Origin: Fusobacterium varium
Lineage (GTDB): Bacteria; Fusobacteriota; Fusobacteriia; Fusobacteriales; Fusobacteriaceae
Length of the DNA stretch: 64,000 nucleotides
Assembly: GCA_002356455.1 (NCBI GenBank)
Contig: AP017968.1
Span: 1,674,001-1,738,000 of the forward strand
Reading direction: 5' to 3'
The position numbers and the translations under genes are program-made. Positions within the stretch are counted from its first letter, which is position 1, and every line of letters begins with the position of its first letter. Of this stretch, positions 29,075 to 32,053 are shown one piece after another. The notes below the pieces were generated by a model, which made no database searches, was not told where the DNA came from, and saw nothing but the letters and a program-made list of their open reading frames with translations.

Positions 29075-29105
29075 AGGCAGGTATTCCTTATTAGGAAACC
29101 TGTCT
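29075..29105. terminator. Bidirectional terminator between convergent ABC operons
   Basis: CAGGTATTCCT (29078-29088) and AGGAAACCTG (29093-29102) pair with one bulged A. T-rich tracts lie on both sides. It overlaps the last codons of the minus-strand gene. Confidence 0.75.
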
Positions 29106-29744
29106 CTTCTTTTTGTTTATTACTATATCTTTTATATTTCCGTTTTCCATAACAATTATTCTATCAGAAATTTGATTAACAAAATCTATTTCATGGCTTA
29201 CTATTACCATAGTAATATTGCTTGATTCTCTAAGCTGCTCAATAACATTCAATACTTCCTTTACCATATCAGGATCAAGAGCAGATGTAGGTTCATCAAA
29301 AAGCAGAACTTCTGGATTTCTTGCTAAAGCTCTGGCAATAGCTACCCTCTGTTTTTGACCTCCAGAAAGAGCTTTAGGGTAAAAGTCAGCTCTGTCTTTT
29401 AGCCCAACTTTTTCTAAAAGATCATAAGCTATTTTTTTGGCTTCAGATTTATCCATTTTATCTACAACTATCAGTGATTCCATTATATTTTGAATAGCTG
29501 TTTTATGAGGAAAAAGATTAAAAGATTGAAAAACCATTCCCATTTTCTTTTTATCAGGAACTTTGATATTCCCAGAATCTATTTCTTCCAACCCGATAAG
29601 ACATCTGAGAAGGGTAGATTTTCCACCACCAGATGGACCTATAATAGAAACAACTTCTCCTTTTTCTATATCAAGATTGATATTTTTAAGTATTATATCT
29701 CCTTCTAAGTACTGTTTAGATAAATTATTAACTTGGATAATCAT
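29091..29744 (-). CDS. Polar amino-acid (probably histidine) ABC importer, ATPase
   Basis: 217 residues. Walker A GPSGGGKST, LSGGQKQRVAIARAL signature, LLFDEPTSALDPDMV Walker B and VSHEIDF are all present. It belongs to the GlnQ/HisP group but is about 25 residues shorter at the C-terminus than usual (ends INKKKRQVS), lacking the normal PEEIF tail. It is third in the operon SBP-permease-ATPase and starts 2 bp after the permease. The operon is led by a poly-His leader peptide, so histidine is the inferred substrate. Confidence 0.9.
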   Translation of the reverse strand: MIIQVNNLSKQYLEGDIILKNINLDIEKGEVVSIIGPSGGGKSTLLRCLIGLEEIDSGNIKVPDKKKMGMVFQSFNLFPHKTAIQNIMESLIVVDKMDKSEAKKIAYDLLEKVGLKDRADFYPKALSGGQKQRVAIARALARNPEVLLFDEPTSALDPDMVKEVLNVIEQLRESSNITMVIVSHEIDFVNQISDRIIVMENGNIKDIVINKKKRQVS

Positions 29745-29745
29745 A

Positions 29746-30372
29746 TTATATCATCACCTTTTTTTCCATTTTTTTAAAGAATAAAACAACTATTGTAGAA
29801 AGTCCTAAATAAACTACTGCACATATAAAAAATGGTGCTATTGAGAAATCACGAGTAACAATTTCTCTTGAATTTCTTAATATCTCAGCCATTCCAATAG
29901 CAGAAACTAATGAAGTATCTTTAATAAGAGAGATGGCTTCATTTGACAATGGCGGAAGTGCTGTAATAAGAGCTTGTGGAATTATTATTCTAATCATAGT
30001 CTGCCAGTACTTCATACCAAGTACTTTTGCAGCTTCATATTGTCCTGGATCAATTCCCAGAATGCTTCCTCTAAATATTTCACAGAAATAAGCTGTATAA
30101 TTTATAACAAATGTAAGAGAAGCAGCAGCAAAAGGCGATAAAGTAATACCAACTACTGGAAGACCATAGTACACAAAGAAAAGCTGGAGTAAAAGAGGTG
30201 TACCTCTAAATATCCATGTGTAAACTTGAATTATATTGCTTAATGTTGTATTTTTTGAAACTCTTCCTAGGGATAATAATATCCCTAGAGGAAGAGAGAA
30301 GAGCATAGTCACAACATATAAATTAACTGTTAATTTCATACCTTTTAAAATAAATATTATATTTCCGTCCAT
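29746..30372 (-). CDS. Polar amino-acid (probably histidine) ABC importer, permease
   Basis: 208 residues with about five membrane segments and the HisM/GlnP-type motifs: YTWIFRGTPLLLQLFFVYYG, then EIFRGSILGIDPGQYEAAKVLG (EAA loop; split as EIFRGSILGIDPG, QYEAAKVLG), IIPQALITALPPLSNE and IKDTSLVSAIGMAEIL. A single permease gene implies a homodimeric channel. It lies between the binding protein and the ATPase. Confidence 0.9.
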   Translation of the reverse strand: MDGNIIFILKGMKLTVNLYVVTMLFSLPLGILLSLGRVSKNTTLSNIIQVYTWIFRGTPLLLQLFFVYYGLPVVGITLSPFAAASLTFVINYTAYFCEIFRGSILGIDPGQYEAAKVLGMKYWQTMIRIIIPQALITALPPLSNEAISLIKDTSLVSAIGMAEILRNSREIVTRDFSIAPFFICAVVYLGLSTIVVLFFKKMEKKVMI

Positions 30373-30389: not shown

Positions 30390-31160
30390 TTATTTAGTTG
30401 TTCCTAGCCATTTTAAAGAAATTTGATCGAATGTTCCATCTTTTTTCATCTCATCTAATAGTCTGTTGATTTCATCTAACAAAGCTTTATCTTGTTTTCT
30501 TAAAGCTACTGCGAAGTATTCATCAGATAAAGATTCTTCAGAAAAGCTTAGAGTGTTTTTCTTAGCATTGTAGTATTTTCCAGAGATAGCATCCATAACT
30601 ACTGCATCTGTTCTTCCAGCTTCAAGATCAAGAAGTGCTTCTACATTTGTTGCATATTTTTTAATTTCTTTAAGTTTTGGAGCTATAGCATTTCTTTCAA
30701 CTGCTTGTGATCCAGAGCTTCCTAATTGAACTCCTACTACTTTTCCTTCTAGTTCACTAACTTTATTTATTTCATTACCTTTTCTAGAAAAAATAATTTG
30801 TCCATCTACAAGATATGGAGTAGTGAAAGCAGCCTGTTTACTTCTTTCCTCTGTTATTGTCATACCATTCCATACCATGTCAATATTTTTGCTTCTAAGA
30901 TCAAAAATGATTCCATCCCATTCACAAGGTTTAAATTTAGCTTCAACTCCCATTCTTTTGGCAACTTCTTTAGCAAGGTCGATATCAAATCCAACTATTT
31001 CCTCATTTTCATCTCTGAATCCCATTGGAGCAAAAGTAGCATCTAATCCAACTGTGAAGTATCCATCTTTTTTTACTTTTTCCAAAGAATTGTCAGCTGC
31101 AAATAAGCTGATAGAAGTTAATACCATAATAACTAAAACTGCCATAAATAATTTTTTCAT
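30390..31160 (-). CDS. Polar amino-acid (probably histidine) ABC importer, periplasmic binding protein
   Basis: 256 residues, signal peptide MKKLFMAVLVIMVLTSISLFA without lipobox Cys. It is therefore a soluble periplasmic protein, as in Gram-negatives. The family-3 binding fold shows TVGLDATFAPMGFRDENEEI, VGFDIDLAKEVAKRMG, MVWNGMTITEERSKQ and TDAVVMDAISG. Sequence alone does not fix the ligand. The five-His-codon leader peptide and attenuator directly upstream make histidine the best inference. GGGAGGAG precedes ATG. Confidence 0.9.
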   Translation of the reverse strand: MKKLFMAVLVIMVLTSISLFAADNSLEKVKKDGYFTVGLDATFAPMGFRDENEEIVGFDIDLAKEVAKRMGVEAKFKPCEWDGIIFDLRSKNIDMVWNGMTITEERSKQAAFTTPYLVDGQIIFSRKGNEINKVSELEGKVVGVQLGSSGSQAVERNAIAPKLKEIKKYATNVEALLDLEAGRTDAVVMDAISGKYYNAKKNTLSFSEESLSDEYFAVALRKQDKALLDEINRLLDEMKKDGTFDQISLKWLGTTK

Positions 31161-31200
31161 AAAGATCTCCTCCCGTATTATTAAATCAAAATTAAAATAA

Positions 31201-31309
31201 AAAAGCCATCTGACATGAGTATCCAGATGGCTTTAACTAAATTAGAAAGCATTAAGTTCCACCATAGATACAGACTCGTTTTGAACTACAACATGAGTCT
31301 GTATCTATG
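31201..31309 (-). promoter_or_regulatory. Histidine attenuator: hairpin plus intrinsic terminator
   Basis: In transcript order (minus strand): a 15-bp perfect stem with arms 31295-31309 and 31263-31277 (CATAGATACAGACTC and its complement). Next comes a terminator with 11-bp perfect arms 31224-31234 and 31202-31212 (AAAGCCATCTG), followed by a U-run. The 5' arm shares CATAGATA with the leader-peptide end (31334-31343 region), so the 3' arm could pair with either. That is the kind of alternative pairing used in ribosome-stalling attenuation. The hairpins are seen directly; the switching mechanism is inferred. Confidence 0.8.
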
Positions 31310-31333
31310 AATCAAATTCACAAAAACAAACTC

Positions 31334-31387
31334 TTATCTATGATGATGGTGATGTAATGTGTTTTTAAGAACTGTAATAACTTTCAT
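31334..31387 (-). CDS. His leader peptide of the amino-acid importer operon
   Basis: A 17-residue peptide, MKVITVLKNTLHHHHHR, too short for routine gene finding. ATG at 31387 follows AGGGAGATAATT. Codons 12-16 are CAT CAC CAT CAT CAT, then AGA and TAA. Five consecutive His codons just ahead of a strong hairpin and a terminator are the hallmark of his-type attenuation: low charged tRNA-His stalls the ribosome and lets transcription continue. The downstream operon is an ABC importer rather than biosynthesis genes. Confidence 0.88.
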   Translation of the reverse strand: MKVITVLKNTLHHHHHR

Positions 31388-31424
31388 AATTATCTCCCTT
31401 TAAATTAAAATTTATTATGAACTT

Positions 31425-31453
31425 ATGATACTCTCATAAAAAGAAAATGTCAA
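31425..31453 (-). promoter_or_regulatory. Sigma-70 promoter of the histidine importer operon
   Basis: On the minus strand TTGACA (31448-31453), 17-nt spacer, TATCAT (31425-31430), placed about 38 nt before the leader-peptide ATG. Confidence 0.75.
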
Positions 31454-31486: not shown

Positions 31487-32053
31487 TTATCTAAATTTGA
31501 TAATACCATTCTCAAGAGAATCAACTACAGCTAGAGCTTCAACTTTGACACCATTATCAATTAATAACTTTTCACCCTGCTGGAATCCTTTTTCTACTGC
31601 TATACCAGCACCAATAACTTCAGCACCAGCAGATTCAACTAATGTTTTAAGTCCTAACACAGCATTTCCCATAGCCAGAAAATCATCAACAATAAGAACT
31701 TTATCATTAGATGTCAAAAACTCTTTAGCTACACAGATTGTATAATCTTTATTTTTAGTAAATGAAAATACATTAGCTGTATAAAAATCTCCCATAGTAG
31801 AAGGAATTTTCTTTTTAGCAAAAACAAGTGGAACGTTGAAGGCGTAAGCAGCAGCTAAACCTATTGCAATTCCTGAAGCCTCTATTGTAAGTATTTTATT
31901 AACTCCCTGATTTTCAAATCTTCTTTTGAATTCTTCTCCCATAGCCATCATTAGATTGGGATCTATCTGATGGTTTAAAAAACTATCTACTTTTAGAATA
32001 TTTGTCCCAATGGCTTTACCATTTTTCTCTATATATTCTTTTAATAATTTCAT
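31487..32053 (-). CDS. xpt: Xanthine phosphoribosyltransferase
   Basis: 188 residues, the normal length of Gram-positive-type Xpt. It opens MKLLKEYIEKNGKAIGTNIL, then SFLNHQIDPNLMMAMG and LTIEASGIAIGLAAA. The PRPP-binding loop KVLIVDDFLAMGNA sits near residue 120. The enzyme converts xanthine and PRPP to XMP in purine salvage. A GGAGGAA ribosome site precedes ATG. I looked for a purine riboswitch upstream and found none. It appears to be monocistronic. Confidence 0.92.
   Translation of the reverse strand: MKLLKEYIEKNGKAIGTNILKVDSFLNHQIDPNLMMAMGEEFKRRFENQGVNKILTIEASGIAIGLAAAYAFNVPLVFAKKKIPSTMGDFYTANVFSFTKNKDYTICVAKEFLTSNDKVLIVDDFLAMGNAVLGLKTLVESAGAEVIGAGIAVEKGFQQGEKLLIDNGVKVEALAVVDSLENGIIKFR

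Follow-up and report, generated by a model that had tools for sequence, protein, structure and literature searches.

Most known examples of classical attenuation by amino acids come from biosynthetic operons. In the enteric his attenuator, a leader with His codons precedes mutually exclusive helices and an intrinsic terminator, and stalling of the ribosome leads to read-through. Candidate His attenuators comprising three to five consecutive His codons, an attenuator, an antiterminator and a terminator have been described in Firmicutes (PMC9413887; PMC2965389). In the first survey, the attenuator targets listed in Table 3 are only his biosynthetic operons (PMC9413887); in the second, the His attenuator targets are hisZ/hisS* (PMC2965389). 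The bmrB-bmrCD system of Bacillus subtilis is reported to place an ABC transporter under ribosome-mediated attenuation, the transporter being a multidrug exporter that responds to antibiotics (PMC4191407). Lastly, the trpB motif (RF04312), with a hairpin P1, an antiterminator in its right shoulder, a terminator and, as its commonest neighbor, an uncharacterized amino-acid ABC transporter, has been put forward as a strong candidate for an orphan riboswitch by authors who also left room for a classic attenuator (PMC11109978).

We analyzed a 64,000-nucleotide stretch of the Fusobacterium varium genome, hereafter the window. On its minus strand, a leader region lies between xpt (xanthine phosphoribosyltransferase, ending at 31487), its upstream neighbor, and a three-gene amino-acid ABC importer (Table 1). 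The initial annotation had placed a promoter, a ribosome site, a 17-codon ORF with five His codons, a hairpin and a terminator upstream of an importer operon, and sequence and folding analyses confirm each of these elements. Two details changed: the hairpin, first given as 15 bp, has 16 bp in folding, and the binding protein-permease-ATPase operon contains one permease gene. Promoter-like sites as a class show no excess at the locus (4 found versus 4.2 expected). The intrinsic terminator ahead of the first importer gene is defined by the E:F fold, a U tract and covariation; it is unlisted by a simple promoter/terminator scan and was recovered by folding. The whole leader folds better than 200/200 shuffles (z -5.2). 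Furthermore, a Shine-Dalgarno (SD) sequence followed by ATG and HHHH codons is found at a single site in the 4.1 Mb genome, which is the leader of the importer, and an SD with a short His-run ORF is present in 23/23 real His loci versus 0/460 shuffled upstream regions.

Table 1. Features of the leader region and importer operon, in window coordinates
Feature	Position	Strand	Evidence
Promoter TTGACA-17-TATCAT	31425..31453	-	11/12 consensus
Leader ribosome-binding site AAGGGAG	31394..31400	-	Sequence; SD in the same place in homologues
Leader peptide ORF MKVITVLKNTLHHHHHR	31334..31387	-	ATG at 31387, TAA ending at 31334, 17 codons; His run in 22/29 homologous loci
Five His codons CAT CAC CAT CAT CAT	31340..31354	-	CAT/CAC exchange between species at several positions
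Segment A, leader end, complementary to D	31335..31348	-	A:D beats shuffles (p<=0.05) at 66/113 loci
Segment B, pairs with C if exposed	31316..31333	-	B:C -16.5 kcal/mol, z -5.6
Segment C, hairpin 5' arm	31295..31312	-	C:D -25.5 kcal/mol, z -7.5
Segment D, hairpin 3' arm and antiterminator strand	31259..31277	-	D:E 97.7% paired in 17 sequences
Hairpin C:D, 16 bp	31262..31310	-	-25.5 kcal/mol, z -7.5
Segment E, terminator 5' arm	31219..31234	-	E:F 94.5% paired, 5 doubly changed pairs
Segment F (31202-31215) and U tract, intrinsic terminator	31196..31215	-	-15.9 kcal/mol, z -5.1
Rfam RF04312 (trpB motif) match, sub-threshold	31194..31311	-	48.7 bits versus gathering score 59, E 5.1e-06
Substrate-binding protein SBP_bac_3 of amino-acid ABC importer, ATG at 31160	30390..31160	-	Pfam E 3.8e-45
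Importer permease	29746..30372	-	BPD_transp_1, HEQRo_perm_3TM above cut-off
Importer ATPase	29091..29744	-	ABC_tran

Sequence and modeling together indicate that transcription of an amino-acid ABC importer, most likely one for histidine, is very probably controlled here by a ribosome-mediated attenuator responsive to charged tRNA-His. Like the enteric his operon attenuator (RF00514, His_leader), it combines a His leader, mutually exclusive helices and a terminator; unlike it, its target is an importer and the partner of its segment A is D, not B. Searches of the region with RF00514, at E cut-offs of 5 and of 1, gave no match. The likeness extends to the Firmicutes candidates, with their consecutive His codons, attenuator, antiterminator and terminator; however, Fusobacteriota are absent from both surveys (PMC9413887; PMC2965389). 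With bmrB-bmrCD, the proposed attenuator shares ribosome-mediated control of an ABC transporter, here an amino-acid importer instead of an exporter (PMC4191407).

As with the His T-box of Lactobacillales and Listeria, we infer that the charging state of tRNA-His is read by the leader and sets expression of a histidine ABC importer; a T-box, however, binds tRNA directly and involves no translation. Since histidine transporters of Lactobacillales are under His T-boxes (PMC9413887), a T-box riboswitch, or else a protein-controlled terminator, might be considered here. We regard this as extremely improbable: the region has no RF00230 match at E up to 5, and the terminator comes only about 100 nt past the leader ORF.

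Sequence and comparison show the His-run leader and, after it, five segments (B, C, D, E and F) that are complementary to one another. Segment B begins immediately 3' of the leader stop and can form a near-perfect hairpin with C. The antiterminator D:E (-14.1 kcal/mol, z only -2.2) is mutually exclusive with the terminator E:F. In the 17 aligned leaders, C:D is 94.1%, B:C 85.7%, D:E 97.7% and E:F 94.5% paired. Complementarity of B to C is better than in shuffles (p<=0.05) at 109/113 related loci when B is taken from the last sensing codon; taking B from the stop codon onward recovers B:C in 40/49, and misses loci with B inside the last codons. Leaders often finish with AGA-TAA or AGA-TAG, which copies part of C. 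That D has several pairing partners accounts for its conservation in sequence.

The switch may operate as follows. When histidine is scarce, the ribosome would stall at the first His codons, covering A and exposing B; B would then pair with C, and D, thus freed, would pair with E, so that no terminator forms and the importer is transcribed. When histidine is plentiful, the ribosome would reach the stop codon and cover B, allowing C:D and the E:F terminator to form. Were no ribosome present, C:D (in some relatives, a nested A:D and B:C) would keep D from E, making termination the default. For several relatives, folding in the absence of a ribosome does yield the nested A:D and B:C structure; in the window, C:D is dominant and A:D is not. 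We infer that A helps hold D off E when the ribosome is absent, which is the least certain step of the scheme.

To model ribosome position, nascent RNA was folded to the end of E, with the ribosome masking 11 nt past the A-site codon. At equilibrium in the window, an A-site at His 1, 2 or 3 gives 11.4-11.8 expected B:C pairs and 7.3-7.7 D:E pairs, versus 12.8-13.8 C:D pairs and 2.8-3.6 D:E pairs with the A-site at His 4, His 5, Arg or stop; with the ribosome absent, there are 15.4 C:D pairs and no D:E. The choice of structure is thus set by the modeled ribosome position. In the model, ribosome position also raises D:E in 72/79 Bacillota loci. Switching at equilibrium is not a property of every Fusobacteriota locus: 15/33 switch, including the window and its nearest relatives, and C:D always wins at the others, for example in Cetobacterium, where a kinetic argument is therefore needed. 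When the full-length transcript of the window is folded at equilibrium, the terminator forms in all cases; the decision must therefore be co-transcriptional, as in classical attenuators. The initial annotation had called for a search for mutually exclusive leader structures; these are present, and the choice between them follows the modeled ribosome. Together with conservation of the His run, these ribosome-dependent alternative structures strongly support its reading of the locus as a putative ribosome-stalling attenuator.

A close homologue of the binding protein (E < 1e-70) is encoded in 29 genomes of Fusobacteriaceae, and conservation was assessed in these. An SD-preceded short ORF with at least three His codons lies at the same position in 22 of them; the remaining seven comprise one HYHRY leader (G027), one contig end (G013) and five genomes with no His leader (G020, G022, G029, G030 and G033). 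One Leptotrichiaceae genome (L210) also has a His leader at the importer, and the His leaders of other Fusobacteriaceae precede hisZ, then hisG. The survey of Fusobacteriota proposed at the outset has thus returned His-run leaders before both the importer and hisZ-hisG operons. The pattern named at the outset as a refutation, importer hairpins conserved with no His codons, was not found in this sample, save for the partial case of HYHRY. More broadly, SD-ATG-HHHH is present in 40/98 Fusobacteriota genomes, versus two matches for the reversed pattern. Binding-protein relatives outside Fusobacteriota have no His leader at the gene, and the His leader at the importer binding-protein gene looks like a fusobacterial trait.

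Two of these loci deserve mention for their own sake. The HYHRY leader (L022/L051) is a natural variant that has lost some of the His codons seen in the HHHHRY of its close relatives. In L005 (G001:C1:1201732-1202498), the binding-protein gene appears as two overlapping matches, residues 1-202 and 197-256, and looks frameshifted or misassembled; its His leader is intact.

Leader peptides diverge outside the His run, and within it His codons exchange between CAT and CAC at several positions. This bears on the idea that His codons are kept for RNA pairing of A with D rather than for translation. Pairing with D is indeed open to the two or three His codons nearest the leader end; however, the first ones lie outside A, synonymous exchange between species is common to several positions, and on related leaders Tyr, Trp or Pro codons substitute for His together with a change of gene. 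We find such a pairing role a most improbable reason for the His run.

The window RNA aligns over the full length of the RF04312 model (1-107) and has the same layout of a hairpin, an antiterminator in the 3' shoulder and a terminator; its score falls short of formal membership (Table 1). No second convincing RF04312-like element was found in the genome, the next match scoring 28.2 bits (E 0.13). The published model (PMC11109978) starts at C, with neither leader nor B, whereas the window has both. To test the classic-attenuator alternative left open by its authors, we looked upstream of RF04312 sites elsewhere. All 61 above-threshold sites examined, which are from Bacilli, have an SD-preceded leader with at least one Trp codon, as do 14/14 further sub-threshold sites in Bacilli. 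When these upstream regions were shuffled with dinucleotides preserved, 3.0% of the shuffles had a leader containing W and 0.13% one with two Trp codons. The Bacilli leaders typically end in WQNWRR, 6-30 nt upstream of the motif. Judged from their start sequences, the genes that follow are mostly TrpX-like or TrpB-like; family models confirmed TrpX at one locus (L159) and TrpB at another (L231).

In Fusobacteriaceae, the leader codons on this scaffold change with the downstream gene: His codons precede HisZ, Trp codons TrpX, Tyr codons TyrS and an AgcS-family carrier, Pro codons PutP, and a mixed WYFYYF leader precedes a DAHP synthase. In Clostridia, where all matches are sub-threshold and downstream genes other than HisS were named from the protein start alone, HisS and HisZ-like genes follow leaders with His codons, symporter-like genes follow Tyr/Phe codons, and LeuT-like genes follow runs of Leu codons. 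Locus counts across the scaffold family share ancestry and do not represent independent events. Seven sub-threshold matches (L063, L065, L070, L172, L174, L175 and L177) have no cognate leader and were treated as chance or unexplained.

These observations bear directly on the published view of RF04312, in which the C:D hairpin would bind a small molecule and control the terminator, the leader ORF being incidental. The motif was put forward as a strong candidate (PMC11109978), and part of the hairpin is conserved in sequence (GUAUCUAUG). Against a metabolite ligand stand the Trp-codon leaders at every above-threshold site compared with their rarity in shuffles, the joint variation of leader codons and downstream gene, and the complementarity to C of segment B, beside the leader stop. 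A metabolite riboswitch is on this evidence very unlikely, and RF04312 is, from its sequences, best explained as a modular leader-peptide attenuator. Quite probably, it is a scaffold shared by Fusobacteriota, Clostridia and Bacilli in which D chooses between A, C and E, and in which codons retarget the switch (His, Trp, Tyr, Pro, Phe, Leu); the genes that follow are often for uptake, and there the codons would indicate the likely transporter substrate. The C-D-E-F part of the window would then be one instance of an element reused in other species with Trp, Tyr, Pro, Phe or Leu codons. The T-box, RF00514 and metabolite-riboswitch readings were rejected, the first two for lack of a match and the third in view of the Trp leaders at RF04312 sites.

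The mechanism itself is classical attenuation and already known. As far as the open-access literature shows, a His attenuator at an importer, an attenuator in Fusobacteriota and RF04312 as a retargetable leader-peptide attenuator are new: we found in it no report of RF04312 as an attenuator and none of leader-peptide attenuation in Fusobacteriota. Going beyond the initial annotation, the leader RNA is one case of a scaffold that spans phyla and that Rfam lists as a candidate riboswitch. This candidate would become a known mechanism, and the search for a ligand could be spared. As leader codons name an amino acid, they also allow the substrates of transporters still without assignment to be predicted in Fusobacteriota, Clostridia and Lactobacillales.

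For the importer in the window, histidine is likely the main transported substrate, judging from regulation and auxotrophy. A search of 12 genomes from the genus of the window found no hisG, so that uptake must supply histidine, and the attenuator would act here on uptake in a genus where histidine must come by import; in several other Fusobacteriaceae, hisG is present and lies behind a His leader. The window's genome also has hutH, and histidine is thus probably degraded as well. The operon has the make-up of a histidine ABC importer, with a family 3 binding protein, a permease and an ATPase. The binding protein scores under every cut-off of the substrate-specific NCBIfam models and reaches no histidine-specific one; for the HisJ equivalog it obtains 110.5 bits versus a cut-off of 459, which is compatible with histidine as substrate.

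The attenuator might also work as proposed on an importer that takes up another substrate or a range of amino acids (such as the cationic ones) and merely responds to histidine shortage. The models nearest to the binding protein, all below their curated cut-offs, are indeed broad-range or cystine/lysine-arginine-ornithine ones, and the nearest solved chains bear several different names. However, a genus devoid of hisG requires histidine uptake, the His run is retained across diverged importer homologues, and elsewhere on the scaffold leader codons and gene function agree. We thus consider a different or broader substrate unlikely, and histidine the likely one.

Several individual loci of the scaffold are of interest in themselves. 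The matches at L063 and L070 (Fusobacteriaceae) precede a gene starting with MKLAVLGSGSKGNALFVETDN, with no recognizable amino-acid leader. In L072 (G015), a Tyr-run leader, YYYYYR, precedes a gene of the AgcS family (sodium:alanine symporters), which hints that its substrate is related to tyrosine. Clostridium sp. OS1-26 (L157) has the His leader MQSLIIMFKTTHHHH on the scaffold before hisS. In L176 (G384, 1501-2652), a sub-threshold RF04312 match with the Phe/Tyr leader MMKMNSLHTNNRFYFSYFR precedes a TrpX-type ABC_sub_bind protein, and this transporter may carry Phe/Tyr instead of Trp. Six Clostridia leaders, YYLSYY (L304), FFFSFF (L310), YYCNYY (L313), YYYGYY (L323), YYYYYSHYF (L321) and YYFSYF (L306), precede symporter-like, ABC permease-like or BrnQ-like genes, for which control by aromatic amino acids is predicted. 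Also in Clostridia, the Leu runs RVLLLLAELL (L308) and RVLLLADLF (L320) precede neurotransmitter-symporter (LeuT-like) genes and are predicted leucine attenuators.
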